Below are positions 1 through 47,800 of a stretch of DNA of 64,000 nucleotides, one piece after another (the first letter of the stretch is position 1; each line of letters begins with the position of its first letter). Below the pieces are notes generated by a model. That model was not told the origin of the DNA and searched no databases. It saw only the letters and a list, made by a program, of their open reading frames with translations. Origin of the DNA: Tribonema minus (lineage: Eukaryota > Sar > Xanthophyceae > Tribonematales > Tribonemataceae); the NCBI GenBank assembly GCA_017506865.1, contig JAFCMP010000003.1:310001-374000 (forward strand), read 5' to 3'. The position numbers and the translations under genes are program-made.

Positions 1-3000
1 AAGTATGTGGGACTCTACGTGCCCAGCGGCACAGGAGTCCAGAGTACCTGAGCCTCAATGCTCAGGCAATAACTTATTGAACTTCAATCCAACAGAAGTG
101 TGTGGCAGTACCTCAATCTGGAAGTGCAAGATTGTCGTAGGCATGTTACTGAGAGCATGAGCTGTCTTTCTTCCTGGAACTGGGGCTACCCAACAGCTGG
201 CTGACAGCAGAGCAGTAGCGTCAAGCTCCTAAACCTGCTGCTAACACTGATATGACAACATTTCTTTTAGTTGCATGTTGTGCCGCGCTGGCAGCCCGTC
301 ATACATGTAGATTCAAGTTGAATGCTCCCTACAGGTATATTCAAGTTGAATGCTCCCCCGCCTGTCACCATCTTCAACCCCAACGTCTCACCAGCCACAT
401 CAGTGCACAGCTTGGGCACACGGCCTTCAAAATACTCCTAAACAGTGTATGTACATACCTTGATGTGCCATCTCTTCAATATCAATGCAAGGGGAAGCGT
501 CACATGTGCCTCCTTACGCTGGCAAAGTGCTCGTTCCACAGCTGCACCCACAGCCACGAGCTTGTGAAGCTTCATTTTGCCGGAGTTGGTTGAATTTTCT
601 GCTTGTATGAAGCTGATTCCAGCTTCAAGAAACCTGTCATCATCGACATTCCCGTCACTGCCCTTGCCACAACGCTCCGGCCAAGGACGCCGTGTGCCAC
701 TTCTCCGCGGCCAGCAGGCCCTCATCACCCACAATCACCGCGAAATATGGTCTGCAATTGGTGCGAAAGTAGCTGACATTCTGATAATCGCCCCTGCCAC
801 AGCGCTCAGGCCAGGGAAGCCATGCGCAGCTTCTTCTGCCGGCAAGCCCGTCGTACTGGTTGTACCTTACGTAACTGCCACTGCCACGCCACAACTCTTA
901 CGGGTTGCAACTGACAAAACTGCTCCTGCCACAACGCTTACTGGTCGTAACTGACGTAACCGCCCCTGCCACAACGCTCAGGCCAAGGACGCCGTGCGCT
1001 ACCTCTTTGACGCGGGCAAGCCCTCATCACCACAATCACCGCGAAATGTGATTCGACAATTGCTGCAAAATGTAACTGACATTCCGATAACTGCCGCTGC
1101 CACAACGCTCAGGCCAAGGACGCCGTGCGCCACTTCTTCGACGCGGGCAAGCCCGTGGCGTCCATCTGCCACGGCCAGCAGCTGCTCGCTGCTGCGGGCG
1201 TCCTCAAGGGCCGAAGCGGCACCGGCTACCCCGCCATTCAGGCGCAGTGCACGCTCGGAGGCTGCGCGTGGGTGGCGCCCGACCCCATCACCATGGCGCA
1301 CACGGACGGCAGTTACGTGAGCGCTGCCGCGTGGCCCGCGCACCCGGCGCTCGTGGCGCAGTTCGTTGCAGCGCTCGGCGGCGCTGTGGAGCACAAGGGG
1401 GGGGCCAAGAAAATTCTCGCGCTGTGCGGGGATTTCATGGAGGACCTGGAGATCATGGTGCCGTTCCAGGCGAGTGTTTTGAAAACGGACCCTAGGGTTT
1501 GGGTCAGGGTTAGGGTCTTCATAGGGCCAGAGTTGGTGTCAGCACTCGGCGGCGCGGTGGAGCACAGGCGGGGGATATATGAGGGTATGTAATGTCACTG
1601 GGCTAGACTTCATGGAGGACCTGTGTAGAACGACTGTACTCTCCTAATGCGTATGTGGCACTGTGCAGTTTATGAAGTTCTGCACTGCTATGGTACTGCA
1701 GGGGCGCGCGTCTGACCAGTTCACCGCAAAGCACTGCCAATGATGCACAGTGCTCGGCATCAAGGATGCGACTCGACTCGCATGCTCACCACCGCAGGCT
1801 GTACAACTGACACCACTCGCTCACAACCATTGTGATCATGTTTGGTATAGAGATAGGCTTAAATCCACCATATGTATGCATCACGCAATTATGCAACTAC
1901 CGCGAGAGTGGACCTGACCCCCCCATCCATCCCCCCATACCCCATGTCCTTCATCAACCGCCGACCGATCGTCTCAGGGTCTGCTCGCGATGGGGCACTC
2001 CGTTGATGCCGTGTGCCCAGGGCGTGTCAAGGGCGAGAAGTGTGCGACTGCTGTGCACGACTTTGAGGGCGACCAGACGTACACAGAGAAGCCTGGCCAC
2101 AAGTTTGAGCTGACGGCGGGGTTTGATGACGCCGCCGCTGACGTGGAGTCATATGACGCGCTGCTGATACCAGGTCAGTAGTGCTTCATTGGTGTACTTC
2201 ATGTTGAAGTATGCGCATGCGTATTATGTATGACGATGCCGGCGCCGACGTGGAGTCGTATGACGCGCTGCTTGTACCAGGTCGGTGGCACCACCTGTTG
2301 AAGTATGGGTATATGTGTTGTATTGCGTTTGATCATGGTTCTTGTTGCGTGATTTGCGCGGCCATATTCAACTGCAGAACAGCGGAGTGCAACGACAGTG
2401 CTGCCGCGGACGTGGATTTGTATGACGCACTGCTCATACCGGATGAGAAGCTGCGCGTATGAATGCAGCTACTTCAAACATCAACACTGACCTACATGCT
2501 CCTCTCAAGCAAATGTGCTAATAGCGCCAGGAGCTGATGAACTCTGCAACAGGGGCAAATGGCTGTCCAAGCAGTGCACCCAGCGCACTGCATCAGCATT
2601 CCGCAATGCACCAGCTGCACCATTTGTCACAACGTACACCATTCATTGCACCACTCTAACCGTGTACCGTATGTGTACCGTTCCGGTACTGTTCCTTACG
2701 TGTACCGTTCCTGCACTGTTCCTGTACTGCGTGCAGGTGGCCGCGCCCCCGAGTACCTCTCCATGGACCCCAAGGTGCTGGCCATCGTCAAGCACTTCTT
2801 TGCCACAAACAAGCCCGTCGCCTCCATCTGCCACGGTCAGATCATACTCGCGGCGGCGGAGGTCCTCAACGGGCGCATGTGCACATGCTATCCTGCTGTG
2901 CAGCCGACGGTGGAGGCCGCTGGCGCAGAGTTCGTGGCTCCGGACCCCATTGATATGTGCGTGACGCAGGGGAATTTGGTCACGGGCGCCGCGTGGCCGG

Positions 3001-3059
3001 GTCACCCCCAGTTTCTGCAGCAGTTTGCGGCGCTGCTCGGCACCACCATCACCCCCTGA
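1..3059 (+). CDS. Double-domain DJ-1/PfpI family protein (plant DJ-1D-like), 5' end missing
   Basis: This is the 3' part of a protein with two tandem DJ-1/PfpI (class I glutamine amidotransferase-like) domains, the arrangement of plant DJ1D/YLS5-type glyoxalase/deglycase proteins. Secure exons are 1113-1469, 1978-2173 and 2737-3059 (stop TGA). Their phases (0, 1) join without a frame break. The first exon holds the end of domain 1, with nucleophile-elbow motif ICHGQ, and runs straight into domain 2 (start KKILALCGDFMEDLEIMVPFQ); the last carries the second ICHGQ and ends AALLGTTITP. Both catalytic Cys are therefore kept. A peptide RSPEYLSLNAQ at 33-65 looks like the preceding domain-1 exon, but its acceptor and phase are unclear; the start lies off the window. 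The intron after 1469 has a GC donor (gcgagt), because only that joins FQ to GLLAMG. Family members act on methylglyoxal or glycated products; the exact activity here is inferred. Introns are full of partial exon copies (see findings). Confidence 0.9.
661..1160 (+). repeat. Repeated exon heads with acceptor site, DJ-1 gene
   Basis: Three diverged copies of the block 'intron tail + AG + first 30-50 bases of the exon' precede the real exon start at 1113. The copies are at about 661-710, 790-850 and 962-1020, with shorter tails near 884 and 929. Each reads like CCTGCCACAACGCTCAGG followed by the codons for AKDAVR. A second shared stretch (CTCATCACC..AATCACCGCGAAAT) at 719-747 and 1023-1050 shows that the repeat unit continues beyond the exon part. 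Confidence 0.85.
2127..2444 (+). repeat. Repeated exon ends with donor site, DJ-1 gene
   Basis: The real exon end (2127-2173, coding ADVESYDALLIPG, donor gtcagt) is followed by two diverged copies at about 2222-2283 (donor-like gtcggt) and 2396-2444 (no donor), inside the following intron. The copies keep the ADV..YDALL reading frame, but the next real exon (2737) joins only the first. Confidence 0.85.
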
Positions 3060-3633: not shown

Positions 3634-6600
3634 ATGGCGACCACCGTGTGCGTCGATGGCATTGGCCTGGCCGCGTGCATCAATGAAAACCTTAACGCAG
3701 AGATGGGGCGACTGGACGACTTGGCCTGTGAGTTCCAGCTTGCAGATGCATTTTCGGTTTGAAGCTTGATCTGTGGCTCGGGAGTGCAGCAGCCGGTCTG
3801 TGTCTTTGCAGCCCCGCGGCCTGTAACGTATTTCATGCGCACCACCAGCTTACAGGGCAGCGCACCGCAGCTGCATCGCAATGCCTGACCATGTTCTTGC
3901 TTTGCCGTCGTGCCTCCGACAACTCCGTGTGTGTTGCAATCCTTGGCTTGCCATCATGCAGTGCGCACATGCTCTGCACCTCTCTGCGCGCTCTGCATGA
4001 TGCCGACACCAACTTCTGCAGCAGCGGCGCTGCAGCCGCTGGAGTGCTGCGCGATTGGCAAGACCACAATCCGGACACGACCAATGCTCACGAATGATGT
4101 CCACTGATGTGCTGCTGCCTGGTTCCTGCAGTGTCGGTGAACACCTTCTGGCTGCTGTTTGGTGCGGTCCTGGTGTTCTTCATGCAATCCGGCTTTGCCT
4201 TCTTGGAGGTCGGCTGCGTTCAACGGTGAGAGCCGCTGACTGGTTTGCAGTGATTTGTAATTAATGCATGCAAATGAGTCATTATTTGCATGAGTACATT
4301 GATATATTACAGCTGACCATGACCTTTGTATGCTTGACAAGGTAGCAAGTTGTTACGGTGGTGCTTGGTTTGTACACGTGATGATATCTAATCCTCCTGT
4401 GTGATTCCTTGATTGTCGGCTGCTTGCAGGAAAAACCAGAAGAACATCCTCATCAAGAATGTTTTCGATGCATCCATTGGCGCTCTGGCATGGTAAGTGT
4501 CTGAGCCAACTGGCTAATAATACAACAACAAGGTCTGGGATGTTCATATTAGGGCACCGCACTATACAGGCATTTATGGATACATTAGACCACTGACTGG
4601 AATTTCGTGCGAGAATTCCGCAAGCTTATTTTGCAGTACCAGTCTGTACAGTTTTTAGCATCAACCTGGAGGCTTGAGCTCTGTTGTTACATGCAAAGGG
4701 ATTTGCAAGCATGGCAGAGCTTAGATCTGCAGAATCGCAATGAATGGAAGCGGTAACCAGCAAGGCATTAGTCTCAACAAGTTTATTACCACGAGGGCCA
4801 CCAACGGCACTACTATGCACGAGACCAATTCGCCAAGAGAGAAGCCACATGTTCATTTACTTCGAGGTTTCGGCACAGCTGTTCAAAATCTACCAGTATG
4901 CCCGGGAGACCCCACATGTTTGTGTGATGACGAGTAGTGGTCTGTTTGTAGAAGTCAGGTGGCGCTGACCGCGCTGAACGGCGCCCTCATGTATATACAA
5001 AAGTCGTAACACATATCGTTGACATTGTAGTTAGCAGCGCCTAGGGTCATGCAGCCGTGCTGCAGAAAAGGAGTGGCAACAACGCCTTGTTTTCTATGCT
5101 ACAGACTGGAAAACGATGAAGTACGTGTCACGAGGCACCGGTTGCTAAACCGTGCAATGCGTTGCCGTCATTGCGGCCTGTATGGCATTGTTGAGGTGGC
5201 CCGCTTCATATGTTTAACTTCAACAGCTTCTTGCATTGTCCAGAGACAGCCTTCACAATCACCATGTTGTGGACAGAGGAAAGCGCACAACACCTGTGAT
5301 TGTCTACCGCTTGTAAGGGGTACTTGTTATACCTACCTTTGATACCTCCGTGCCTACCTGCCCTCTTGTGCAGGTACGTGGCGGGCTACGGCATCGCGTT
5401 CGGCTACGACTCGTACGTCAAGACCGGCGACACCAACGGCTTCATCGGCACCACCGGCTACTTCCTCGCGGGAAGCACGTTCCGTGGTGGCGATGTGAGC
5501 GATGAGGACTTGGGCTACACGTGGGCCAACTGGCTGTTCCAGTGGGCCTTTGCTGCAACGTGCGCGACCATTGTCTCCGGCGCCGTGATGGAGCGCATCT
5601 CGTTTGGCTGCTACCTCATCTACGCAGGTGCGTTGGCTGAGCGCTGAGCGCTGCTGACGTTGATACATAGTGCTGCGCAGTGCTCAGGCAGTGTTGCGGA
5701 AGTTGGCAGGTGTTTGCAGGCCTCTGGATGGTGATGGTGCTCATTAAGCTACATGTCAAGATGTGCACATGAAGTGGCTGTGTGGAGGTACTGCAGCTCA
5801 CTGCCCATGTGCGAACCCTTGCGCAGAACAGCACACGCACTCACCAACAACTGCCCCCCCCCCCCCCTTCTCCACCCCCCCAGTCACCCTAACGGGCTTC
5901 ATCTACCCCATCATGGTGCACATGACGTGGAGCGCGGGCGGGTGGATGAGCGCCTTCCGCGAGGACTTCCTGCTCTCGCGCTGCGGCGTCGTCGACTTTG
6001 CGGGCTCGGGCGTGGTGCACATGACGGGGGGTGTGGCAGCGCTCGTGGGCGCGGTTATGGTGGGGCCGCGCGCGGGGCGCTTTGGGCCCAGCGGGGAGGT
6101 GCGCGCGCTGCCGCAGCTGTCGTGGGTGTACCAGGCCATCGGCACGCTCTTCCTCTGGTGAGTCCGCGGTGTTTGGGGTACAGTGTACTCTGTGCTTGCT
6201 GTCAAAGTGTACTGGAAAGAAAACCAAGGCTAGCTAGCACACCGTACCAATGGCGCGAGCAAAGGCAACAGAGGCGCCACACAGTCCCTGTGTGACGAAA
6301 AGGGGAGATATTATATCGTAAGCATGAAAACCTGGACTGTGCCAGCTCAGCATCGCTGAGTCATCGCGCTCCAAGATCTCGAACAGATCTGGAACAAATC
6401 TCGAACAAAACCATAAGGGAAAATTGCAACTTCGAGTGCACAACTTGAAGTGCAACCTGACTGCAAACCAAAACAGTGCTCATGTCAACACTGTTGCCGA
6501 CCATCACGCATTGCGCACGACTGCAAGAGTGGGCAATTGAAACCTATCAGTACAAACGATTATCTGCTGTGGGGATGCTGCAAGTGTTGCAATGTTATTG

Positions 6601-8362
6601 ACGCTGCCTGCATGGCGTGAACACTGTGTATAAATACATGTTGACCTGAAGAGTAGCGAGCAGTTCATTCACTGACACAATAGCCATGACTGCGCCAGAT
6701 CACAAGCGCTGCGTGCGCTGCGCCATTTGTTTGGAGAGTCACACTTGAAGTACGCGCGTCACCTCACCGCCCCCCCCCCCCCCCCCACACCCAACAGGTT
6801 CGGATGGTACGGTTTCAACGGTGTGTCCACACTGCTCATCACCGGCAAGGGCCTGGTCGCTGCCAAGGTGATGATCAACTCCACCCTCTCCGGAGCCATC
6901 GGCGGACTGTCCTCGACGCTGGTGGCGCTGCTGATGAACGGCTACATTGACCCCGCCGCCGCCAACAACGGCATTCTGAGCGGGTTTGTGGCGATCACGG
7001 GGCCCAGTGGCGTGGTGCAGCCGGAGGGAGCGCTGCTGATTGGCTTCATCGCCGGCCTCATCTACCAGGGTGAGGCACTCACAGCGGAATGCCTGCTCCC
7101 CGCCTTGCATTTTCTCAATGTCGACCAGAGTGTGAAGAGTTTATGATGACTACTTGCGATGAGCGTCATTGTCACCTACATAAAGTTCATGACAGCACCT
7201 CTTGGTTTCAGCGCTGCTGCTGATTGGCTTCTTCGCTGGCTGCATCCACCAGGGTGAGGCACGCATGCCAATGCCCCCGAAACGTGCCTAACGTTCTGCG
7301 TCCTCACTCCTGTGGACATGTCACCCATTTGGCATGACGCAAAACCAGCATCACCTTCAACCCCTGCGTGACCAACTTGAAGACTCAGCTTCGTGACAAA
7401 GCAAACCTGTTGCGTTGTGTTGTGGCCCCATTGTGCCCGCTTTTGCATTTCTGACTCTGCGCGCGGCGCGTCACCCCCTTGCCTTTTCTGCACCCCTTGC
7501 CTCATCTGCACTTCGACAGTCACCCCCTTGCCTTTTTCTGCACCCCTTGCCTCACCTGCACTTCGACAGGCGCGTCCAACCTGCTCCTCAAGCTGCGCAT
7601 CGACGACGTGGTCAACGCCGCACCCGTGCACCTCTTCTGCGGCATGTGGGGCATGTTCGCAGTGGGGCTCCTGGCCGAGGAGCACAACTACGGGCGCGCG
7701 TACTACGAAGACCGCGCTGACATCTGCTGCGGAGCGTTCTACGGATGCGGCGGGAATCAGCTCGCGGCGCAGATTGTGTTCATCCTCGTCAATCTGGCAT
7801 GGACAGGTGCATTGCTGCTATCTTGAAGTTGAAGTAGGGCTGCGGCAAGAACCGGCTCGCGGCGCAGGTTGTGTGCATCAACGTTGACTTTACGCAGGCA
7901 GGCGAGCTTGTGACTCTCTAAAGCTTGAAGGTTGGTACATGCTCAGCACGTTATTAGAAACTGTGGTGTCAGTCATCTGTAGGTCATGGCTGCATCCCAT
8001 GCGTTTCAAACCAGAACCAGCTTGTTGGCAGGACATGCGCAAATCAGGCACGCAAGCCAATATGCCTCAGCAGCCCTTGCCATTGCCAGATCCCCCCCGT
8101 GCCCCCTCTAACTTCACACTTGCTCTCCATTGCCACCACAACCTCAACAGGGGTGACGTCGGCGATCATGTTCACGGTCGCCAAGTACACGGTGGGGCTG
8201 CGCGTGAGCAAGGAGGTGGAGGAGATGGGCATGGACTCCTCCAAGCACGGCGGCCTAGCGGACTACGCGCACACGGAGGGCAACAAGTCGCTCGACAACT
8301 CGCGCAACGGCCTCTTCCCCGTGGGCGCGGACGAGATCCACGTCGGCAGCGCCGTCGCATAA
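3634..8362 (+). CDS. AMT1-type ammonium transporter
   Basis: Complete gene of eight exons: 3634-3727, 4132-4225, 4430-4492, 5374-5627, 5884-6157, 6798-7069, 7570-7806 and 8151-8362. All junctions are GT-AG and the phases fit, giving 499 residues, the usual length for an AMT1 channel. It imports ammonium across the plasma membrane. Family marks seen are the membrane segment FGAVLVFFMQSGFAFLEVG near the N terminus, WLFQWAFAATCATIVSGAVMER, the pore-region signature GSGVVHMTGG, and the late segment MWGMFAVGLL. The hydrophilic C-terminal tail (from about KEVEEMGMDSSKHGG) is the expected cytosolic regulatory tail. The start ATG opens MATTVCVDGIGLA, before the first membrane span. Introns 6 and 7 hold copies of exon ends and a doubled acceptor region. 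Confidence 0.95.
5854..5883 (+). promoter_or_regulatory. Poly-C tract serving as polypyrimidine tract, AMT intron 4
   Basis: A near-unbroken C run (broken by TTCTCCA) ends directly in the CAG acceptor used by the exon at 5884. The same layout recurs at 6770-6797 before the exon at 6798. Confidence 0.6.
7070..7905 (+). repeat. Copies of exon ends and acceptor in AMT introns 6 and 7
   Basis: Three separate cases occur. (1) The end of exon 6 (about 7029-7075, ..GCTGCTGATTGGCTTC..CCAGGGTGAGG) reappears diverged at 7211-7259 with the same GTGAGG donor. (2) The last 50 bases of intron 6 are doubled (7473-7519 and 7520-7569), giving two CACTTCGACAG acceptors. (3) The end of exon 7 (7743-7806) is echoed at about 7841-7905 in intron 7, GGCTCGCGGCGCAG included. 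Confidence 0.85.
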
Positions 8363-10057: not shown

Positions 10058-11922
10058 TCAAGACTGTTTGAGCGGCCCAACGGGGCCAGCATTGGCGCGC
10101 GCGACCTGCACTTTAACGAGCCGGCACTTTGCGTCCTCATCCTTTGGATCGCATCGCAGGGCTTCGGTGTACTCCTGCTCTGCAAGTTCGAGGTTTCCGA
10201 GCTCCTTTTCTTGGAGGAAGGCCATGTTGTAGTGCGCGAGCAGGCTGTCCGGGTTGAACGCGATGGCGTTCTTGTAGCACTGCTCAGCGCCTGCGAGGGT
10301 ATGCAAGAAAGTGTAAGAAAGTGATGTCAGTATGGCATGCAGGTAAGAGCAGGGGACAGGGGCATCTGTTTTTGCAGAAAGGTGTGCACTTGAAGTACGG
10401 AGAAGTACTCTGGCCGTGTCATGACACACATGGCAGAATCCAGGGGGGGGGGCACATGGAGGAGGACGTAGGGGAGGACCCCGAGATGCCATTTGGCGGC
10501 GGCGGCGTTTGAGTGGTTGTCGTTGCGACACTTTCAGACTGTCATACGACATGTAGATTCCTTACAGCTAGATGCCAATCATCTGGGCTTTTTCGCGCCC
10601 TGAGCGAGAATTAATAAAAAGTACATGGAAGAGACTATGACCTGCCAGCCTTTGTTTGAGCGCAAATTACGTCGCGGCACAGGTTTTCTGGCTGAGTCGA
10701 CAAATGTATTGCATTTACTGGCCGAGTCCACAAATACGCTGCAGTGAGCACTCTGCACACCTGCCTGCAACCCACCTGCGAGCATACGCAGAATTGAGAA
10801 GGAGGTGCACATCCCACGGACACAAATGTGCTACCAGTGCTGCGCGCACAACTTGTACAGTAGCGTGGTCGGTGCGGTGCAAAAATACTTGTAGTACAAC
10901 CTCTTGTGTCCTAGTTGGCCTCAGAGACTACGCCTGCACACCAGCAGACACTACAAGCCACACTTGTAGCACCGACATTGTGAGCCTCAGCCTCGCTGTG
11001 TGCTGTGCGCGTGTAATGACTATGAGAGTGCTTGAGGCTTCCACACTGTTGAGCATCACCTCCTGCATAGTTCAGGCTACGTTGTTGGTGAAGCTCACGG
11101 CATACAAAGGTTTTCGCAGGTGCGGGTACTTACCACAGCAGCCACCGTACATAGTGAACGTATATAGGATACATATGGTAAATGAATAGGGTATGTATGG
11201 TATGGTAAGCGGTGAATACATACCTGCGGCGTCATGTCGTTCGTGCTGCAGCAGGTAGCCCAGGTTGCAGTGCGCGTCGCTGTTGGTGGGCTGTAACCGC
11301 ACCGCCTCCCGGTATGCGTTTTCAGCACCATCAATGTCCTTGCGGACATGCTGTAAATGACGAGGAGCAAAGTCGCAAAGCATGTCTCAGCACGCCTGCT
11401 GGCACATTGTGCAGCGACACCACATGCGTTGGCAACACTCATCGGGCTGCTCCAGCCCTAACCCTTACCCTAACCCTAACCCTAACCCTAACCCTAAGCA
11501 GCACGGGAGTACCATGGAATGCTTGATTCTAATGCTAGCAACATCCAACATGTCAAGGTGTAGTCCGGTGTACCTCGCCAGAGTACATCAACAGTGCAAC
11601 AAGAGCTGTATACCTCGCCAGAGTACAGCGAGTGAGCAACAAAAGTACAACAAGGATGCGACAACAACGCAAACACACTACACTTGAAGTGTACCTGCAG
11701 CAGGTGCCCCAGACTGTTCTGCGCGTAGTCAGCAGTGGGGTCGCACTGCAGCGCCAGGCGGTAGTGACGCTCCGCCCCCGCATAGTTGGAGCGCTTGTGC
11801 TGCAGGAAATGTCCATAGTTGTTGTGCGCCAGCGCGTCATTGGGGCTCGCCTGGAGAGCCAGAATGAACTTCTCCTCCTCCGCCTGCGCAAGTTCAACAG
11901 ATTTGTGCACAGCGATTAGCAT
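10058..11922 (-). CDS. Small tetratricopeptide-repeat (TPR) protein
   Basis: Minus strand, exons 11695-11922, 11224-11350 and 10058-10290 (stop at 10058-10060). Phases 0 and 1 fit and give 195 residues. Nearly the whole chain is TPR helices: GAEQCYKNAIAFNPDSLLAH, AENAYREAVRLQPTNSDAHCN and LAEQEYTEALRCDPKDEDAK show the W/L-G-Y-A-F-A-P spacing of four or more repeats. TPRs bind partner proteins; no partner is implied here. The start at 11922 (MLIAVHKSVELAQAEEEK) is the first Met that keeps the first helix whole; an additional upstream exon cannot be excluded. The first intron downstream of the start holds a telomeric tract (11456-11497), and the last intron contains one copy of the 131-bp dispersed repeat. 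The products of other TPR families are possible; no specific orthologue is recognised. Confidence 0.8.
10496..10626 (+). repeat. 131-bp dispersed structured repeat, copy 1
   Basis: Near-identical to 39568-39699: the two copies differ only in the length of an A run (5 versus 6). It starts with (GCG)n, ends AATTAATAAAAA then GTACAT, and can form three short hairpins (TGTCG-TTG-CGACA, AGATG-CCAAT-CATCT and GGGC..GCCC). It lies in the last intron of the TPR gene, antisense to it. Confidence 0.85.
11456..11497. repeat. Interstitial telomeric tract (CCCTAA)n
   Basis: About seven CCCTAA units, one of them altered, in an intron of the TPR gene. It is the longest clean telomeric-type array in the window. 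Confidence 0.9.
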
Positions 11923-17013: not shown

Positions 17014-17044
<31 letters not shown>

Positions 17045-20000
17045 GCAGCAGCAGCAGCGGCAGCAGCGGCAGCAGCGGCGGCGGCAGCAGCGGCGGCGGC
17101 GGCAGCGGCGGAGCGGGCGCGGGCGCGGGCGCTTGCGCGGGCGCTGTGCGGAGGCTGGATGCGCAGTCGCTGCAATCGGCGGTGGCGCACGCGGAGGCAG
17201 CGCTCAACGGCGCACAGGCGCGGCGCACGTACGTGGCGGCGATGCACATGCTGCTGTACGAGCGGCCGGGCGCGCGCGGCGCGGTCATGGCGCGCGACGC
17301 GCTGCGCGGCGTGCTGCGTCAGCTGGAGCTGCACTTCTTCTCAGGTGACTCTCCCGCACGTAGGTTGCGCACTTGTGATTGAGCGCGTTATTATGTCACA
17401 CGGAACCAGAGTACAGAGTATTAGAGGTGGTGATGCGGCTTCTTGCCAGATTGATGCTCGCCCCAACCTGAACCTCTGCTGCATCTGCTCCTCACAGGCG
17501 GGCACCTCTCGTGTAGCTTGCGCATGTGATTGTGCACGTTGCCATGCCGCACGGAACCAAAGTACGGAACGACACAGGTGGTGATGCTCAGTTCTTCTTG
17601 CCACACCCTCACCCCAACTTCAACTTCTGCTGCATCATCTGCAGGAGGGCACCTCTCGGCGACTGCGGTGGAGGAAGTTGTCATGGACATGCTGCGGCGC
17701 GGTGTCAACGCTCAGCTGGCTGCGCGCTGGCGCAGGGGCAACGAGCAGCTGAGGCGTGAGGCAACAGCTGCTGCAGCGACTGCGGCGGCAGCGGCGGGGG
17801 ATGGGGGGGCGGGGGGAGCGGCAGCAGATGTGCCGCCGCTGCCTGACGATGACTCGCCTGGTGAGGGTATGTAGCGTATGTATGTATATGAATGCTTCAC
17901 AGTGCTTTACTGCGGTCAATGATGGTTATCCCAGCTGTGATAGATAATGCCATCAGGTCATCAAATATGAAGGAGTTGCTGGCTGACTGAATATTATCAG
18001 GGAATGAAATTTCCGCATGGGTACATACATTTGGTGTTCAGCGTTAAATCGAAGGTCATATTTGAAGGCGCAATGCAGCGCCCTAAAGAACTGGTACCAC
18101 ACAAACAGTTAAGGTTGTCATGCCACTACGTATGCCATTGTGAGTTGTGAATTGGGGCTTGTGGCCATGTACATTGACGTCTGATCAAGCCACTCTAATG
18201 AAAATTTGGCGTCTGCTGACTTGCTGACAATGCCGTGACATGGTGCATGGCATTTTATCCACAGTCTTGTGCATTGCACGCCATCATTGCGCAGTGCCAC
18301 CAGATCCCTGCGGCATCCTCACATACATACATCCACACAAAAGCAAGTCGCTTCACTTTTAGCCCCCGCCATGAAGACAGTACATCCGTGCATCACGAAA
18401 CAATGGCACTTCCGCACAGCAGAGCTTGAGATGGTGCGAAAATGCCCCCCCCCCTCCTGTGCAGCGCACCACTGCCACTGCAAACATGTGCTCATGCGCT
18501 GACACCAGCTCATAACACTGACCAATTCCCTCTGCGGCAACGCTCCGCTAACCCTAACCCTACCCCTAACCCTCACCGCTGCAGACGCGTCGCTGTGCGC
18601 CATGCTCGTGCGCCCCGCGCTGCTGCTCGGCGAGTGGCCCACGGCGCTGTCGGTTACGCTCTCCCTCACCGACCGCGTCACCGCCACCCGCGCCGGCGAC
18701 GGCCACCACGGCTGGCTCTCCCTCACGGCGCAGCTCGCAGAAGAGCAGCGCCCCGCACGCGCCGACGTGCTGCAGTTCTTCGCGGGGCTGCTGGTCGCTG
18801 CCCTCGAGGCAGCGCCCGCAGCAGCGCTCAGCAATCAGGTGAGGGAGCGCGCCGCCACGTGCCTGGCGCACGCCATCGGCTGCTCCGTCGACCCCCCAAA
18901 CACCCCCCTGCTGTCGCTGGCGCTGAGCGGAGCGCGTGCTCTGGGCGCTTTCGCGCCGAGCTTGGGAAACATGGAGGCGGACGGCGGCACGCCCGCAGCG
19001 GCAGCGGCGGCGGCGGCGGCGGAGGCGGCGGCGCGGCAGGTGTTCCTGGCGTGCTGCGGCGCCGGCGTGCAGGCGGCGGAGCGCGCGCGCGGCGACGGCA
19101 GGCGGCGCCGCGCGCTGCTGGAGTACACCGCCGTGGCGCTGCGGGCGGCGGCGCGGATCGCCGATGCGCATGCTGACAGCGTCAGTGGCGGCGGCGGTGG
19201 CAGCAGCAGCAGCGCGGAGCCGTGGCTGTCATGGGCGCAGGCAGAGGCGCTCACGCGCGCAGCGCTGCCGCCGCTGCGCGCGCCGGCGGTGGTGGTGCCG
19301 CCGGACCTGCGGCCCGCTGCCGTTCACGTGCTCACGGTAGTGGCGCTGAGCGTTTGCGTGGAAGGCGCTGCGGAGGTGGCAGCGGCGCAGCGCGTGGAGG
19401 CGGTGACAGCGCTCCACGGCGCGCTGGCGGCGGCGGAGGCGTGCAGGGAGGAGCCGTTTTTGCAGCGCGTCGCGGCGTACCTGGTGTCGCTGCAGCAGCA
19501 GCAGCGCTCAGGTGGCAGCAATCGGCAGTGCTCAGCGGGCAGCGCAGCGTCAAAGGCAGGCCGGCAGCGGGCTGCGGCGCTGTCGGATCGAGAGCGGGCG
19601 TCGCAGCGTGAAATGGCTATGGTCGTTGTCGATGGCGCTGCGGACGCGGGTGTATCCAGCAGCGGCGAGGACGACAGCTTGGAGGACTGCATCACAGAAG
19701 CCATTGCGCAATGCCACCGCTGCCTCTACAACGTCACGGTCTATCCAGACACTGTGGAGCATGCCACACGCAGCGGCGCCGCGTCGCCCGCTGCCGCCAC
19801 TGCCATCGCCACGTCCCGGCCCAAACCCGCACAGCTGTCATTGGGGACTGCTGCGGGTTTGTACCGGCAGTGGGAGCCGTACTTGGATGAAGCGAAGCGG
19901 TCAGATACGGTGCGCCTGCTGGAGCTAGTGAGCGCGTGCCGCGCGCTGCGGAACCCGCCGCCGACGGAGTACGGCCGCGCAATACGTACCTACCTGTTCA

Positions 20001-21836: not shown

Positions 21837-21867
<31 letters not shown>

Positions 21868-27859: not shown

Positions 27860-28230
27860 CGCTGATCCCCTTACCATGACATTGGCATTGTACATACTAT
27901 ACTGAATATTATATTGTACATACCTACGCGCCTGACTGTAAGGATGGCACACTGACTTTGCCCCCGCCGATCTGCTCTCCTTGCAACAGCGACACGAGAT
28001 CGGACCGGAATTCTCCTTCCTGCACCTGCGCAGCCGCGCCGAGATCCTTGCCATCTCACAGCTTTGTACATATTATATTGTGCATACCTACCCGCCTGAC
28101 TCAAAAGCAGCGCGCGCTGACTTTGCCCGCGCCGCTCCGCCCCCTCTTTGCAACAGCGACACGAGATTGGGCCGGAACTCTCCTTTCTGCACATGCGCAG
28201 CCGCGCCGAGATCATCTTCACCATTGCGCA
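27860..28230 (+). repeat. 167-bp tandem duplication carrying an exon head
   Basis: The block 'TTGTGCATACCTAC.CGCCTGACT.., CTTTGCAACAG + exon codons RHEIGPE.SFLH.RSRAEI' occurs with its acceptor at 27989 and again at 28156. The offset between exon heads is 167 bases. A third, shorter relic (GGCTGACTCAAAGGCGGC) is at 27839-27860. The second copy is the one that leads into a long open exon. Confidence 0.85.
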
Positions 28231-29226: not shown

Positions 29227-29285
29227 TTGACAAGACCGTATCGGCCACCGATGCCCTAGCCCTTCCATTCCTTGCCGGTGCATGA

Positions 29286-30744: not shown

Positions 30745-33700
30745 TTAGAGAGCAAAGCCCCCCTTGGTTTCTTCCTCCGTGTGTTCCTTGAGTGTCTGCA
30801 GTGCCTGCGTTGCCCCAGCGCTTCGCTCTTGCGCCTGCATCTTGATGTCTCCCATTACCGCCTGCATACCCAGTAGCAACAGGCAAAACAATCAGCATCA
30901 GTTCACGTTCACCAACAGGTTCCGTCTAATGCCGATGCAGATACCCTCATGATTCTTTGCTTTGGGGTAGCTCAGTGACAGGCTAGCTTTACTTCAAAAA
31001 GCAAAAGTCACAGGCATCAGCAAAACAGCAATAATAGTGTTGATATAACATGTAGAATGACATGTTATCTCCACAGGGCAAAGCAGGCAGCTGAAGCTCA
31101 ATGTGGCAGACAGATAATCCTCATGCTATTATAACCTATCATTCCATGGTTACGCCCTGCGATAATCGTGCATCACCACCGACTCAATGGCAGCTGCACG
31201 GTGATATCCACATTCTAGCAAGCATCGCGCTCCCATGTCAGCTGCAAGTGCACACTTCAACTTCAACATCAAGCTGCGCACCTGCACGATCGCCAGCGCC
31301 TGCTTGACGGGCCCGGACAGCTCCTGCCCCCTCTCGGCCCCCGCCACCTCCGCTTCTGCAGCGAACCCCTGGCCGTGGCGCGGAGCAATGCCCACAACGC
31401 CCTTGAACACGCCGAGCGCTGCCCTCGCAGGTGCAGAGGGGGTGCCGTCGCGAGGGGGGCCGTTGCCCACAAAGGCCTCCAGGAGGCCCAAAGCGAGCCC
31501 TTCTTCCAGGTCCTGGGGCGGTTGATGGTGGAGGGGAAGGGGGGGGGGGGGGGGGGGGGGGTTGTGAGATGGGGTGAATGGTTGCTAGCAGCTGGGCGGT
31601 GGTGCTGCTGATGGCTTCTGGTGTGTAGCTTTTGTGAATGATGGTGTTGTACTAATTCTTGACAAGTCCAGATGAGCTGTTGTTTCACATCCAATGCCTA
31701 CAATATGTGCAGTAGTGCGTACATACATACCTGCATATCGCTAACCCGGGGGCGTTCCATAGTCACCTCGAGCTTTATCAGAGCACAATGGCATAGGGCC
31801 AGGCACAACCCTGAACCAGCACGCACGCACAGTTTGTGCCCTGTTGCATACCCAATACCTACGGTATGTGCACAATTCGATACCTACAGTATGCGCAAAA
31901 CAAAGGCACACATACGTACCTGCACGTCCGCTCCGCGCTCCATAGCCACAACAGCCTCCGGAGCCTGTGACGCCATCTCCTACTGCAATACCTACAGTAT
32001 GTGCAGCAATCAATGCATACCTTACTGCATACCCAATACCTACAGTATCTGCACCAATCACGCATACATGTATGTGCACCAATCATGCATACATACATTC
32101 TGCACGTCTGCCCCAAGCGCTCCATGCCTCATCACAACACAATCACGCAGGCTCGGGCGCAACCCATCCGCTCGTTGTGTCCATTGCTACACACAGTACC
32201 TACGGTATGTGCATAATTGCACACATACCTGCACGTCTACCCCACGGTCCATGGCCCCCACGGCCTCTGGCGCCTGTGACGCCATCTCCGCGAGCCTCTT
32301 CTGCAGGTACTCCTCGTATGAGTTGACGCCGAACTTGCGCAAGTAGAACGCCTGCAGCGCGGGGCCGCGCTTGGACTCAATCTTCTCGTTCCACGTCTGG
32401 ATGCGCTGCGGCAGGGTGTTGTAGCACGGGCGGCAGCAGCTGCAGCAGGGGCCGCAGCAGACGCTGGGGTGGCAGCCGCGGGGGCCGCTCATGCAGCAAA
32501 AGAGGCCTCTGCAAGAAAAGAGAACAGAACGAACACACACATGAGGCTGTATGTATGCGCTGGGAGGGCATGTATGCCAAACTAGAAACAGTGTTGTAAC
32601 TATGCTTGTTGATGAGTGTGTGTGCTCGATGGGTATGTAGGCAGGAACGCTGGTGTGCCAGCTGCACGAGCCGCTCATGCAGGAGAAGAGGCCGCTGCGG
32701 GAAAAGAGATCAAACTGCGGCAAATGGAGCAAACGTCGTCAGGTTATGGCCATAGTGTATGTATGCTGCTGGGAGGCTATGTAGGAAGGCGGCTGGGGGC
32801 ACTTATGCTTCACACATATTGCACATGCACACGAAACCACTCTGGGAGGCAATGAACGGGGGTGAGAGTTGATGTTGGGGGCTGGTCTGAAGGAATTTCT
32901 GCTCCCTAGGGTTGAAGTTAGGTGAACCCTAGGGTTCGCTGAAGCGGCCTCACTGTGACGACATCAGATAAGGCACGCATGAGGGGTTGGCACAGACTTC
33001 AGCTGTAGAGTATCCTGCATTGCTGCCGATGCGGCATCACAGGTCCCTGTTCAGTCAGGCTGGGAAAAAGTGCTCAGGACCGGTTTGCTTACAGATGGTT
33101 ATCTGAGTAACTCAAGTCCACAGCATGCATATATCACGCCGCCATATGGTACTGCCAGTAGCCAGCCTTGCGATAGTTCTAATTAATGGGGCAAAAACAA
33201 CAACGCCAGTCACAGTTTCAAGGCTGTTTGTGTACCATTGACACCTCTACTTAGGGTTAGGGTAGCTGTTGGTTACTGTCACATGTGACATGGCACAAGC
33301 TTACAAATTGGAGCTTTCCGCGACAAATTCTAGCACCCATTCTGAGTATTCTTAGGTGGTGCACATTTACATTGTGCATCTTGCCCTACCTTTCACCCAC
33401 CCGCCTCATCACTGCTCTTGAAAGCCAGTCAGTGACCCATACCCTCCAGAATTGTACACTCCAAATCATCATAAACTTACATCAACTTCAAGAGGTTTAT
33501 TAGGGCGCGGTGCGCATTTGACGTAAAACAGGAAGCTGCACATTCCACAAGGCTCGTGGTCTCCGAGATGAGACGCTCCTCACCAGGGCTCCGCGTGTGT
33601 GGCATGGCATGCGAAGCACAAAGTCCGTATCAACATCAACTGTGCCAGCCTTCAACTTCAATGCAAAAAACGCTCCCGTGCACACTGACGTGACAAGCGC

Positions 33701-35719
33701 TCAAATGTGCTCCACGGGGTGCTCGGCCTGGCACGCAAAGCACAACTTCACAACCAACATCAACAACACCATTTTATAACTTCAACTACAATATCAAGAA
33801 CGTTCCAGTGCGCACTCACGTGACGAGGCGCTCGATGTGCTCCACGGGGTGCTTGGCCTGGCATGCGAAGCACAGGTTCTGGATAAGCCCACGCGGGCGA
33901 ATGGTGTCATCGGGATCCTCCGGCTTGATTCTCTCGCCAGCGGCGATAGGGGGGACGGGGCGGTCGAGGCGCACGTGCTTGCTGAGGGTGTGGCTCGGCT
34001 TGGAGGGGTGCGAGAGGTTGTGGCAGATGACGCCGGCGGCGGCAATGTAGGCGCTGCACGCGAGGCCGTGGAAGCCCATGTTGGCCAGCACGTTGGGGTC
34101 CTCTGGGGGGGGAGACGGGGGGGATGGCGGGGGTTAGTTACAGCGGTGGGTAAACGGGGGCAGGGGGGTATATGTGAGTGTGAATGTCAAGGCAATTTAT
34201 TCTGGGGGGCGGGTCACAAACGTCCCTGGCACACACTTGTGTACAGCTCAGGGCTGTTAATAATGGCATCGCCATGTGACCAACTCCCGGTCTCACTGCC
34301 AACTGTCACCTAAAAGCAAAGCACTGCTGTGACTTCTTGATTGACGACAAGCATCACCCGCATTCCTGGAAGCTGTAGGTTTCTATGGTGGAGAGTCATG
34401 CGGCTATGCAAAGCTGAGCACTGCCCCCCCCCCCCACACACACACACACACAAAAGCAGCGCTCACCTTGACGGCAGCAGCACTTGAAGATGGAGCCCCA
34501 GAACCCCGCCATGAACGCGTGCCACGAGATCCGCACCATGAACTCGACGAACGAGAACAGGTTCATGAACCACACGCACGTCAGCGAGCAGCAGCCCGGG
34601 GCGCGGTACTCGCGTGCCTCCTCCATGTCCATGGCCTTGACGACTTCGGACCAGATGAGCCAGCGGCGGCTGACGTCGGTGAGGCCGCGCGCCGATGCTG
34701 CGGCGATCTCATTGTTGACGAGGGTGTTGCAGGCGACGCTCCAGCCCCTGGGAACGCGGGGGTAGGTAGGTATGGGTATGTTGTTACATTGGTAGAAGAG
34801 GCGTGGGTTGGTGATGGTGGTCAATCAGACGATGCGCGCGGAAATATATTGTGAGAGAGGAGTACGGTGAGGCACATGTAGCTCAAGATGTGCGTGCTGC
34901 ATTGCGGTTGAGAAGATGTGGAGAGTCACTCCAGCCTCTGCAGGTTGCAAAGTTGAATGTGGTTGTCAATGTGAAGATCGGGTGTACATTGCACGGCATG
35001 TGTGGTGTGTCCGTTGCCCGATTGTTTAGATGGCAGACAGGCAAGCAGGAATTTGAAGTAAAGAAGCGCCTGGCATTACAGATTGGCGGGCCGGGGAAGC
35101 GATAACATGCACTGCTGGAGGTAAGAAGCAATTCTGACTGCATTGTTTTCCATGAGCCACAAGGCTGCATGCCATCCTGCAGCTAGCAGTTGCTGCATTG
35201 CTGTCACAGGGCCATCAAATTGCGATCCAGAGAGCACCGAGTGAGCTCTTTGGTGCAGCAGCTACACTGCTGGCGCCTCGCATCCAACAGCCTATTGGAA
35301 AGCACTCTGTTCGACATAGCACAGCCAATAGTGCAAGCTTGATCATGCCCTATCTTCTGCGAGCGATTTGTGTTCCGGGTCGTTTCTGGTGGTCGTCAGC
35401 GCTGTTCCTGATGCGCTTGGCATTATTCGACAGGGCGCACGTCAAGAGCGCGCGATGCAGACCACAGCAATCAGCGACGGCATGCAATCAGTGATCTGGT
35501 AACAAAACCAGGCGCGCTATCCTTTAGATGCATCGCTGCTAAATGCAAGAATGCCCTGCAACCTCGGTCCTCTGCAGCGATGGTGTCTAGAATACTGGCT
35601 TCACGCAGGTGCAGATCCACTCACCTGTCGATATCCAGCTTATTGGCGGCTATCTCGGCCCCGATGCGGCCAGTGTCGTAGTTTCTGTGCAGCAGCTTGT
35701 TAGCCTTGTTAGCATCCAT
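30745..35719 (-). CDS. Cys-rich multi-exon membrane protein, function unknown
   Basis: Six exons on the minus strand: 35625-35719 (start MDANKANKLLHRNYD), 34467-34747, 33820-34102, 32229-32508, 31282-31512 and 30745-30861 (stop TAA, ends TKGGFAL). All donors and acceptors are GT-AG and the phases fit, giving 428 residues. Hydrophobic stretches CSLTCVWFMNLFSFVEFMVR / ISWHAFMAGFWGSIFKC and MGFHGLACSAYIAAAGVICH suggest two or three membrane segments. Cys clusters flank them: CCCRQEDP, LCFACQAKHP and GLFCCMSGPRGCHPSVCC.., continuing as a run of CC pairs. This resembles the Cys-rich style of PLAC8-type proteins, but the diagnostic motif is not clear. The C terminus (RGQELSGPVKQALAIVQ, then KMQAQERSAGATQALQT) is helical and charged. 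The start is the first in-frame Met of the first recognised exon; an upstream exon is possible because an AG precedes it at 35738. No function is assigned. Confidence 0.82.
31539..31561 (-). promoter_or_regulatory. 23-base homopolymer (C on sense strand) upstream of an acceptor
   Basis: G run on the + strand, so C run on the sense strand of the Cys-rich gene, 27 bases before the acceptor of the exon ending at 31512. It probably acts as the pyrimidine tract. Shorter C runs sit at the acceptors near 34103 (same gene), 47937 and 49723 (kinase gene). Confidence 0.6.
31721..32290 (-). repeat. Repeated exon ends with donor, Cys-rich gene
   Basis: The end of the exon at 32229 (sense: ..GGGGTAGACGTGCAG|GTATGTGTG) has diverged copies further along the intron at 32090-32135, 31907-31980 and 31721-31767. 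All keep a GACGTGCAG-like end (the last is degraded), and two keep GTA(C)GTATG donors. A palindromic TACCTACAGTATG/TACCTACGGTATG element separates them at about 120-base spacing. Confidence 0.85.
32461..32710 (-). repeat. Repeated exon head with acceptor, Cys-rich gene
   Basis: The head of the exon ending at 32508 with its CTTTTCTTGCAG acceptor (32461-32520) has one diverged copy upstream in the intron at about 32649-32709. That copy keeps the Pu-rich acceptor context and the codons for MSG / CHTSV-like residues. Confidence 0.8.
33577..33890 (-). repeat. Repeated exon ends with donor, Cys-rich gene
   Basis: The real exon end (33820-33885, coding CFACQAKHPVEHIERLVT, donor GTGAGTGCGC) is followed downstream in the intron by diverged copies at about 33675-33760 and 33577-33640. 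The first copy keeps the whole block, including the TTCAACTTCAA motif just beyond the donor; in it the donor reads GTCAGTGTGC. Confidence 0.88.
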
Positions 35720-35737
35720 GATCGCCGCGTGTTCTGA

Positions 35738-40743: not shown

Positions 40744-40874
40744 GACAGTAGCGCGCTCGTTTGTCTGGTGCTGACTGCAGAGGGGAGCCCAAAAACCTCT
40801 TCTTCGGCTCCAGCGAAAACTTGAAGTGCAAGGAAGTTTGATGTGAAGTTTGTCCTCGTGATCCACTTCGGTAG
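40744..40874. promoter_or_regulatory. Bidirectional promoter spacer (bL21m / ThiD-ThiE)
   Basis: 131 bases between two divergent ATGs, the tightest spacer in the window. It includes an ACTTGAAGTGCAAGG motif and no clear TATA box. Confidence 0.55.
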
Positions 40875-43225: not shown

Positions 43226-44875
43226 TGGGGGGGGGGGGGGGGGGGGGAGGGGCGTCTCTGCAGCTACGGGGGGGGGGGCGCATGGCGTGCCGGCCAACCG
43301 CTTTATATCACACTGTTACAACGATGTTTTGTTTGCTAATGCGACGATGGTGTTGCGTTGTGAGCTTTGAGGATCTGAATGCCGTTGCGGGTGTCTCCAC
43401 TTGTTGTGATGCCTCGTACTGCTTCAAGTACGGAACACAGCAGAGAGCCCGGCCGAAGCTTGGGCTATGATTTGCACACAAGAAGCGTGCCTGGACGGTG
43501 GGCTGCGCTGTTCAGGATCAGGAGCTCACTCGACCGTGCCAGGAATTGCGATGGTGGGAGGCGGGGGGGCGGTAATGGCTTCACAAGCAGCATTCAGATC
43601 GCACTATCACACGTGCTTGTCATGATAATGATAATGCTACCACCGTCCTCGTCTGTGCATGAAACTCACTGCTGTGCGTTATTCATGTGCCAAGCTTGTC
43701 ATTGCGCAGCAGCGCACAGCACTGGCCCTATCTATGGTCACAACAACAGGTCCCCGGTACAATCTCTGCCGATCATGATTGAAATGGCAAAGATGTCACT
43801 AATGTGTCCGCGTATGCATTTTAGTTGTCAACAACACGTATGCGCTTTTCGCTCAGGTAACACGTGCTGTTTGACAGAACCGCCAGGGTACTGCTCATCT
43901 TCTACAGTGAAGCTTCATCACTTTTCCACATGCATCTCATGTGCATGAGATCTGACGCTTGCACGACACAACCTCAGGAAGTGCTAAAGAGCGCCCAAAG
44001 CGTCGCTTGACGCGCAAAGAAGCCCATGTTGATCAACACAACGGCATTTGTGTCTCAACATTGTGAACGCATCATGGTCTAAAGTGGCAACCTCAGCGCA
44101 AGCTGAATACTCATCAAATGTTTACCTGTCAAACACATTTTGTCAAGTGGTTCTTCTGCAATGACGGGCGTGCATCGCCTTGCCAGAGAATGGGCTAGGA
44201 CAGTGCGGCGGCACTGCTGCAGCAACTACTTGATGCGCTGATAGTTCGACAGCGGCAGCCGCGTGTGGCCGGCCATTTTGCTGCTGTGGCCTCTGAGCTC
44301 CGCCGCAGGAGGCACGGACAAGCATATGTAAGCATCTTGGTAGTAAATGATTGAACATACGTCTTGGCAGTAAAAACTTGAACACATGTACTTCATCATC
44401 ATGCGTTGCATGACGTGCTGTAACGCACCTCCAAATGGCTGCGGCATACAAGAGGGTTGGGGCAAACATGCAGTCGCAGATGAAAGTGACAAGGAGACAC
44501 ACCAGGATGTACAGTTTCCCGTGCATGCCTGCTAGCAAGTGACGGCGCACCGTGAGCGACATGCAGCATTCAATTCCGGAGCATGTCCATTTACCGCTGA
44601 CACCTTGCAAACTCTCGGGCGCGGAACGCTGTGATCACGCCCTCATGGCTAGCGCACGCAGGCAGTGCGACGCACGATGTACACCTCCACGAGCAGCGGT
44701 GCGCAGGCCGATACCGCGTATGTATGTATACACCCATCCAATCCCAGCGAGGGGCCGCGGCCCCACGCCCAAAACACGCACACACACTGCCAACGCAATA
44801 AAGAGGGCCGCGCGGCGACGAACATCAACTTCAACTTCAAGTTGGCGCGGGGGACGTGCCCGCTCCCTACAACAG
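43226..44875. other. Spacer, no gene seen
   Basis: Starts with a G-rich stretch immediately after the ThiE stop (43226-43250 and 43267-43278). Between convergent genes; no convincing coding exon. Confidence 0.5.
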
Positions 44876-47800
44876 CTATGCGTCGGCCTCCGCTGCCTGC
44901 GATGGAATGCCTTGCGGGCTGTCCATGCTGTTGCCCAGCTGCAGCGCGACCTTTGCGAGGAAGTCGTCGGAACGTTCTGGAAGGCGCAGCGGGTCCGGCG
45001 GTAGGAGGTCCAGGTGCCCGCATAGCATGGTGAAGAACGGCTCCTGCGTGTGGCGCGCAGTGACAGCGAGTTGAACTTAAAGCTTGGCATGGTGAAGTTT
45101 AAAATGGAAATGCGCCTCAGGCGTGCCGGAACATGATGCTGTGCAATTTACGTGCCATATAAAAAGGGTGTGTGGGTGGCACGAGGGTCCTGCGGTAGGA
45201 GGTCCAGGTGCCCGCATAGCATGGTGAAGAACGGCTCCTGCGTGTGTGTGGCGCGCAGTGACAGCGAGTTAAAGTTGAAGCTTATCATGGTGAAGTTAAA
45301 AGTGGACACGCGGCTAAAGCGTGCCGGAACATGATGCTGTACGACGTACGTGCAATGACATCCCTGTGGACTGTGCCGACCAAAACAACACGTCAAAGAG
45401 TAGATGGCATCAAATATGCATGCATACATACATACATACCTTGGTGCCGACGAGCGTGGTGAGCTTCTGCATGTAGCTGTGCAGCGCCTGCTGCAGCCGC
45501 GCCATCTGTGCTGCGTGGTCGATGCTGCCGAGTTTGAGCACTGACTGCGTTGGCCGCGTGGGCAGCGACGGCATAAGCTTGCTGTACTTGGTGTCCTTCA
45601 TGGCAGCCTTGACCTGCAGCACACAAATTGCAATTTGCAGTGAGCGATGGGCATGAAAACGCAACCTTGACCATAACTTAACCCAGCCTCCGCTGTCATT
45701 TTGCGTTGACTTACTTCAAGTACGAACTATGGAGCACCAGAGAAAGCAAGCCGTACATAGAGAGCGGTGCAGCCTGACACGTTCTCTGGTTCTTATCTTC
45801 CTTTCAATCCTAAGACAAACATAACAACTCGCATTGCGGTGCACCTCCTCAAGCCCTGGAAGCAGACGAAAGTGGACGCTTGCCAACCCTTGCCCCTGGC
45901 CCTAACCGTAGTCATACCACACTCCTACTGTGTAGGACACCTCCCTTTGCGGTGCAGAACATAGTCCGCCGCCCCTGAACCATGTCCTTAGAGATACTAT
46001 TGGAACAATGCAGCACACCTCACCGTGCTCCGAGTCCTGAAAGCGTACAAACATGGACGCGCTCACAAATCGCAACCCTCCCCCCCATTACATGGACGCG
46101 CTCACAAATCGCAACCCTCCCCCACATACACACCCATTATGCAGGCCACCTCACCTTGCGGTGCAACTCCTCAAAGCCCTGGAAGCGGAAGAACGTAGAC
46201 GCGCACACAAACCCCAATCCTAACCCTAACCTGCCTAGCCCCCCCCCCCCCCACACACACATATTATCATAAACTCAAGCCACCTCACCTTGCGGTGCAG
46301 CTCTTCAAAGTCTTGGAAGCGGAAGAACGTCGACGCGCGCAGGAAGCCTCACCCAATCCCCCCACACATATTTACAATCTCTTGATTCGTTTCCATAATA
46401 CTTCAAGACATCTCACCTTGCGGTGCAGCTCTTCAAAGTCCTGGAAGCGGAAGAACGTAGACGCGCGCAGAAAGCGCCAGCGTGAGTCGAGCCGGTACAC
46501 GAGCTCCGCGCCAAAGTTGAAGAAGCCCGACACGCGCACGACCAGGAGGCGCTCGATGACGCCCCGCGCCGCCATCTTCAACAGGCGACGCTCCGTCTTG
46601 GACTTGACGCCTATGAAGTTGAGGTCCTCGGAGTTGATGCCCATCTCCTGTATGAGGAGCATGTCGGTGTAGCCGGCTTGCTCGAAGGCGGGCGCGAGGT
46701 GCGTGAGGCCCACCGTTGCCAGCCACTGCTCCACCGTCTGCGCGCAGCGATCGGAGAGATGGAAGGAGTGAAGTCAGAGTTGAAGGTTGAGTTGAAGTTG
46801 GATTATGTCAATGCCTTACTCACGTTGTGAGGGCCTGCTCGAAGGCGAGCGCGAGGTGTGTGCACTGCTCCGCCGTTGGTCAGAGAACGGTCAAAGAGCG
46901 TCAGTTTTTGAAGTTGAAGTTGGGCTATTTTGGTGTGCCAGCCTGCTCAAAGGCGGGCACGGGATGCGGGTGGCGAACCGTGACCAGTCACTGCTCACCA
47001 TCTCCGTGGTGCAGCGGTCGGCACGTGGATCAAAGGGGGGGGCATATGTTGAAGTTGAGTAAGAAGGGTCGAGGATTGAAGTTCAATTGTCACTGCAGGT
47101 CAAAACAGTCAGCGTGCATGGCTCAAACAGTGCCAATCATTACCAGCCACTGTTGCGCCATATGCACGTGTACACAAACTCAAGCGGTGATACATGTCTC
47201 ACACCTGTGGTCCTTGCTGCTGAAGTTGAAACTTCAACGTCCATGCCCCTTCACCGACCGTTTTCAGATGTCGCACACACCACGCTACCGCGCACGGACA
47301 CACACCATCAACAGACATTTCAACCGACATTTTGTGCCCACGAAATTATACACTTGGACAGAACCACCTTCATGTATACCCATTCTCAACTCTCACTCCT
47401 GGCTCCAACGTCAAGCCTATTCATGCCGGTCCTAAACCTACCCCCAACCCGTCAACAACACGTTCATTCACGGCATAATACTGACTGGCTGCAATCCTTA
47501 ACCCAACCCTCGCCCTCACCCTAACCCTAAGATGCGGAATATGAGTATAACCGTTACACCAGCTTTGTTTGAGATAAATTTCAAAGTTCATGACTGTCGC
47601 CGCTATTGTTATCATGACATGTCTACACTTCCACTTTCGTAATCATTGCTAACAATATCAGTAGCGCGACGAGCGCTGACGCACCTGGTCAAGCACAAAC
47701 CCCTTGGGTATGATGGAGTTGAGCGAGATGCTCACTACGCGCTCCCCCCGCCCCCCCACCCCCCCCTCAACGCTCTCGCGCCTGCTAATGCCCGTCCCGG

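Follow-up and report, generated by a model that had tools for sequence, protein, structure and literature searches.

Exon borders in a 64,000-nucleotide stretch of the Tribonema minus (Xanthophyceae) genome are repeatedly copied into the introns beside them. This stretch, referred to below as the window (C3:310001-374000, of a 158 Mb assembly in 554 contigs), has such copies at 12 of 69 exon borders, with one further marginal case, and they occur in the same six genes for which a preliminary description had reported at least eleven places. Each copy repeats an existing exon end with its donor, or an acceptor with the head of its exon, within an intron that is already present. The copies are probably short-range direct duplications that straddled a splice junction, became trapped in existing introns and have since decayed neutrally, lengthening those introns as they accumulated.

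Border copies and their distribution in the window

The genes concerned are DJ-1-like (three borders), an ammonium transporter (AMT, two), CABIN1-like (one, marginal), Crinkler-like (one), a Cys-rich gene (three) and kinase-PX (three). DJ-1-like, CABIN1-like, Crinkler-like and PX are labels taken over from the preliminary description, while the names AMT, kinase, SAM and PH are supported by sequence searches. In the list that follows, z refers to the border test described beneath it, and D and A mark donor and acceptor borders throughout the text.

1098..1154, + strand: DJ-1-like acceptor 1113 and exon head, the copy source; copies at 967-1023, 795-851 and 665-721, with exonic identity 0.93, 0.83 and 0.83; AG kept in two copies, CG in one
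645..1023, + strand: upstream intron, holding diverged 1113 border copies as an array; BLAST matches 653-851 to 955-1156 (81%) and 957-1023 to 1088-1154 (93%)
1360..1403, + strand: DJ-1-like exon segment near donor 1469; copy 1531-1574; z=12.0; junction outside the aligned part; spacer homology past the second copy (p=0.017)
2121..2179, + strand: DJ-1-like exon end and donor, border 2173; copies 2228-2286 and 2400-2440; z=26.0; spacer homology (p=0.003)
7032..7081, + strand: AMT exon 6 end and donor, border 7069; copy 7216-7265; z=11.0; GT kept; no residual spacer homology
7740..7784, + strand: AMT exon 7 near donor 7806; copy 7835-7879; z=18.1; four scored copies at the same border of the paralog on contig C75
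7470..7569, + strand: 3' end of AMT intron 6, with a 50-bp unit present twice in tandem up to the acceptor; 96% matches
17360..17658, + strand: 153-bp tandem repeat in a CABIN1-like intron (17360-17511 to 17513-17658); marginal; exon-only z=2.8
27906..28213, + strand: Crinkler-like 164-bp tandem pair over acceptor 28157; z=33.1
31845..32289, - strand: Cys-rich gene exon end and donor, border 32229; intronic copy 31911-31980, itself repeated at 32026-32134; z=20.8
32461..32712, - strand: Cys-rich gene acceptor border 32506, set by the transcript-derived protein P0121; copy 32647-32712, which has lost its AG; score 67
33601..33874, - strand: Cys-rich gene donor border 33820; copy within 33601-33744, with a stop and absent from P0121; z=24.7
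44991..45356, - strand: kinase-PX acceptor border 45043; copy 45185-45356; exonic identity 0.98; z=47.6
45824..46475, - strand: kinase-PX donor border 46417; intronic copies 46275-46347, 46147-46211 and 45824-45879; z=37.8; GT in two copies with a donor score equal to that of the real site, GC in one
46666..47021, - strand: kinase-PX acceptor border 46737 in our model (46725 in the annotated protein P0125); copies 46932-47021 and 46832-46862; z=21.5

The border test compares the score of each exon end in its own intron with its scores in 200 mixtures drawn from other introns, in both orientations. Sixteen of 68 window borders score above all nulls, as do three in inverted orientation. A group of ten stands apart, with z between 11 and 48 (1469D, 2173D, 7069D, 7806D, 28157A, 32229D, 33820D, 45043A, 46417D and 46737A), the remaining six are weak (z 1.6-6.9), and no inverted score at the 68 borders comes near z 10. 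The observation of border copies in the window is confirmed. With 1113A and 32506A added, the count is the 12 of 69 given above. The CABIN1-like case is marginal because its tandem repeat, although real, reaches only about 14 bases into exon 17645.

BLAST comparison of the window with itself gives 30 direct and 4 inverted repeats, with an offset of at most 400 bp in 19 of the 30 direct ones. Across 17 sequences (224 kb, 7 of 24 sequences having been excluded as near-duplicates) there are 43 direct against 4 inverted matches at such offsets, and two sets of locally resampled sequence contain none. The nearest scored copy lies 95 to 309 bp from its source. Among 31 hand-clustered host duplications the median offset is 171 bp, with the middle half between 137 and 263 bp. 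Exonic identities of 0.80-0.98 indicate copies of a range of ages. As described earlier, the copies always lie on the intron side of the real exon, but any border duplication that is tolerated predicts this placement. The arrays are smaller than the five copies per site first claimed: the window maximum is three scored copies (1113A and 46417D), and the largest array overall, in the C75 AMT paralog, has four plus a doubtful fifth.

Tandem structure and a proposed origin

Arrays abut or overlap at 33820, 46417 and 1113, and are nearly abutting at 28157 and 45043, with spacers of 23 and 26 bp. In the C75 AMT paralog a unit of 141 bp recurs in register, composed of the last 109 exon bases and about 32 intron bases. 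Residual homology in the spacers was tested in nine pairs, seven of them with spacers of at least 48 bp. In four of these seven the homology continues beyond the second copy (p 0.003-0.017), and at 32229 it is found only before the first (p 0.003). The two short spacers have nothing after the second copy, and one has a match before the first (p 0.020). These results support local, mostly tandem duplication of border segments.

A simple sequence of steps could produce this arrangement. Non-coding DNA of host genes would gain short, nearby direct duplications, tandem where this is still visible. If the duplicated segment straddled a junction, splicing would stay at the outer original site, and the mRNA would therefore be unchanged. 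The exon end and splice site copied on the inner side would be caught inside the intron and would then decay neutrally, and repeated rounds would give small diverged arrays and longer existing introns. For the DNA step we infer slippage, unequal exchange or templated repair, and for the splicing step a strict use of the outer site.

Where selection holds the exon and leaves the copy free, divergence in exon-derived parts should be half that in intron-derived parts, and third codon positions should differ about twice as often as positions 1 and 2. Pooled divergence (K) is 0.134 for exonic and 0.245 for intronic parts, measured in one alignment from C75 and in 11 from the window, where 18 copies were scored. 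The ratio of 0.55 compares with 0.5 predicted for a frozen exon and a free copy. In 23 copies the first, second and third codon positions have 45/402, 31/400 and 73/400 mismatches (0.112, 0.077 and 0.182), or about 1:2 for positions 1-2 against position 3. Such a ratio is expected of a copy that is free at all positions, paired with an exon that is free at position 3 alone. The AMT paralog exons, where both sequences are constrained, have 38/400, 33/399 and 119/397 (0.095, 0.083 and 0.300).

Several observations weigh against neutral, mostly tandem duplication as the full account. The K ratio scatters between single alignments, from about 1 (1113 and 32229) to about 0.1 (45043). Per column, gaps are a tenth as frequent in exonic parts as in intronic ones (0.009 against 0.093), which is below the neutral expectation, and the choice of ends by local alignment may be the cause. 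The AMT spacers at 7069 and 7806 have no homology (p 0.63 and 0.45), so these two pairs could be non-tandem local copies. The rate of border copies in the window is far above that at other host-like loci (12/69 against 1/50), which the proposed steps leave unexplained. Lastly, 12 of 14 non-coding duplication clusters in the window lie at borders, where simulation gives a share of 0.28 (P 1.2e-5).

The two AMT pairs would suit double-strand-break repair by copying of nearby DNA (synthesis-dependent strand annealing), rather than slippage or unequal exchange, and this is a possible, though not a likely, origin of the copies. Primate repair-mediated proximal duplications are alike in length, in locality and in including splice sites: those in human have a median length of 147 bp and lie less than 5 kb from their source (PMC2671141). 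That survey left out pairs lying no more than 50 bp apart and counts 824 duplications for the whole human genome, whereas the copies described here are often abutting, in several arrays in register, and are dense in a single window.

Prevalence and the question of hotspots

The strict exon test gives 12/69 borders in the window, 1/50 at six other host-like loci (at L032; L-numbers denote sampled loci), 1/14 at the AMT paralog locus L039 and 0/54 at virus-like loci, the two classes having been assigned by eye. With the same by-eye classes, local direct repeats in non-coding DNA number 40 in 82.5 kb of host-like sequence, window included, against 4 in 39.7 kb of virus-like sequence, and inverted ones 3 against 0. 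Under a looser BLAST criterion, border-touching repeats are also present at L013, L014, L032 and L034. The pattern is therefore not confined to the window, though copies are more abundant there than elsewhere in the sample. The view that it is genome-wide is weakly supported. Some cases elsewhere may be hidden by poor gene models, all of those outside the window being unvalidated predictions.

Position within genes can be compared with a simulation of uniform duplication combined with detection bias, in which the border share is 28% for the window and 22-25% for all sequences. At 13 other host-like loci the clusters, grouped by hand from BLAST repeats as in the window, number 7 at borders, 7 in intron interiors and 3 between genes (7/17, P 0.11-0.17). 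One of the seven border clusters is doubtful (L034 near 2219, where both copies are mostly predicted coding). The window and the 13 loci pooled give 19/31 (P 1.1e-4), a value driven by the window, which was selected because a reader had seen border copies in it. The count at the other loci omits L009 (identical to the window), L039 (partly found via copies) with L011 and L016, which overlap it, the virus-like 10-kb loci, and L001-L008, most of which are overlapping or virus-like. One of those omitted, L008, has a border-touching array.

The excess of border clusters in the window and in the pooled set is what would be seen if exon borders were true duplication hotspots, for instance at nucleosome edges or where breaks accompany transcription or splicing. 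The two AMT paralogs also seem to have amplified the same border independently of each other, though tree support for this is weak. We nevertheless regard hotspots as unlikely, in view of the non-significant share at the 13 other loci on unvalidated models, the single case among 50 borders in the strict test elsewhere, and the way in which the window was chosen. Were borders genuine hotspots, about one in six borders in such regions would have decoy sites, introns would lengthen from their edges, and the spliceosome would have to choose the outermost site reliably; this outcome is a rather improbable one.

Splice sites within the copies

Of the copies in the window, L032 and L039, 18 extend to the junction; GT or AG is kept in 15 of them, replaced by GC in 1 and lost in 2. 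About 14 of 18 would be kept by chance at about 88% identity. Eleven splice sites in window copies are intact, and their use would shift the frame in 8 cases and, in the other 3, keep the frame but meet a stop. The copies are skipped in annotated P0001 (AMT), annotated P0125 (kinase) and transcript-derived P0121 (Cys-rich gene), and the real junctions are crossed directly. The earlier suggestion of alternative or decoy splicing is thus right in that the sites are often intact as sequence, but the three proteins and the fate of all 11 sites speak against their use, except perhaps at a low level.

A regulatory role in splicing, with the copies serving as functional alternative or decoy exon ends, is accordingly very unlikely. 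The number of sites kept, some with the motif score of the real site, and the rarity of gaps in the exonic parts would fit such a role, but identity alone accounts for nearly as many kept sites, the pooled codon-position and K patterns are neutral, the three known products skip the copies, and use of any of the 11 intact window sites would shift the frame or meet a stop. Short duplications of this kind leave dense natural decoy splice sites of varied ages beside real ones, which is of interest for spliceosome choice and for intron growth. They also carry a warning for annotation, since our own gene finder called two copies exons: the predicted mini-exons 31920-31955 and 46155-46178 were taken out by hand before the 68 borders were counted, because they are themselves copies.

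Intron birth and known systems

Birth of an intron by tandem duplication of an AG|GT-containing segment is an established model elsewhere (PMC3443670), and the preliminary description held it to be ongoing here. It should leave the 3' end of the intron resembling the end of the upstream exon, and the 5' end of the intron resembling the start of the downstream exon. Neither signature is found in any of 66 introns of eight host-like sequences. In AMT, introns 6 and 7 are present at the same places in the C3 and C75 paralogs, while the copies differ in number: C3 has one in each of introns 6 and 7, whereas C75 has four in intron 7 and none detected in intron 6. From the missing signature and from shared introns with differing copy number, it follows that the duplications lengthen old introns. 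One base is common to the C75 exon and its copies and differs from C3, which suggests separate amplification at the exon 7 border after the paralogs split, with weak tree support. Local duplication is clearly present, as the birth model requires, but given these results intron birth is a highly improbable explanation, and the claim that it is ongoing is not supported.

Several known systems resemble parts of this pattern. In a potato RdRp gene a short tandem duplication likewise crosses an intron-exon boundary, with a new intron and an inserted exon segment in the mRNA as the outcome (PMC4974935), whereas here the copy stays within an old intron and no new one is seen. Introners also make intron DNA grow by duplication, but they insert their own copies into many genes (PMC9860276, in which a word search found no mention of Tribonema). 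For the AMT border copies, the best 40 of 83 candidates gave matches only within the gene itself and in the C75 paralog, so that these copies lack the spread that marks introners. Direct repeats occur at splice junctions in another study too (PMC11782384), but those are 4-30 bp long, lie within 80 bp of the borders and are read as insertion scars, while the present ones range from tens to hundreds of bp in length and sit further into the intron. Among the titles and abstract beginnings listed, which leave most subscription journals uncovered, there is no account of border copies in Tribonema or any other alga, and the listed matches on Tribonema minus include none on its introns. Boundary-crossing tandem duplications and repair duplications that include splice sites are each known; their density in these algal genes is new.

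An assembly artefact can be practically dismissed, as the copies differ by 2-20% with codon-position structure and similar repeats occur at other loci.

Gene models

For its training the self-written gene finder was given long open reading frames, the splice sites of AMT and 4 consensus donors. It matches most exon edges of P0125 and P0121, and departs from these reference proteins at the 32506 acceptor (given as 32487), in the last exon of the Cys-rich gene and in inner parts of the kinase. A retrained version drifted to false short introns and was rejected, and the first model was retained. The cleanly aligned exons of P0121 are 97-100% identical to the window, its source species not being stated. 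AMT has 8 exons (3634-8362), and its spliced product of 499 residues is 100% identical to 'ammonium transporter [Tribonema minus]'. The agreement of the gene finder with AMT is partly circular, because the AMT splice sites served in training. The kinase gene (44876-51634) has 97% identity to 'LISK family protein kinase [Tribonema minus]' over the part searched. Annotated P0125 is without 8 residues before the SAM exon (window ~46725-46737 and 47685) that are present in our model. A relative, P0126, has similar residues at this junction, and the gap in P0125 is possibly an annotation error. An Rfam search gave no match at gathering scores.

Other sequence features

The 9-mer TTGAAGTTG is 8.6 times over-represented in 294 kb and lies beside the AMT exon 7 copies; window occurrences include 7823, 46908, 46914 and 44826. 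Of its 41 occurrences 34 are non-coding, and both orientations are found. As a cause of duplication it was set aside because it is widespread and occurs in both orientations.

Several of the contigs C90, C179, C144, C223, C278, C112, C40 and C21 (L019-L031, L033, L040 and L041) are mutually collinear. Read by eye, their predicted proteins resemble those of endogenous giant viruses, with kinases and with PCNA-like, histone-like and DNA methyltransferase-like proteins among them. The pair C90/C179 and the trio C144/C223/C278 are collinear at ~89-98% and were considered for dating by haplotypes. In 4 of 7 main collinear alignments predicted coding sequence differs as much as or more than intergenic sequence, and in 3 of 7 it differs less. 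These contigs were not used as alleles, because of the giant-virus-like proteins and because coding divergence is not lower in the four alignments, and the dating was dropped.

Three further repeats were seen in the window. The first, in AMT intron 5 (6214-6497), is a dispersed repeat of ~280 bp with at least 38 other places at 72-89% identity, and is probably a small transposable element. Positions 11456-11497 hold seven interstitial CCCTAA units, a telomere-like repeat. The third is a 446-bp tandem duplication at 59840-60734 (84% identity), which lies between genes according to the gene model.

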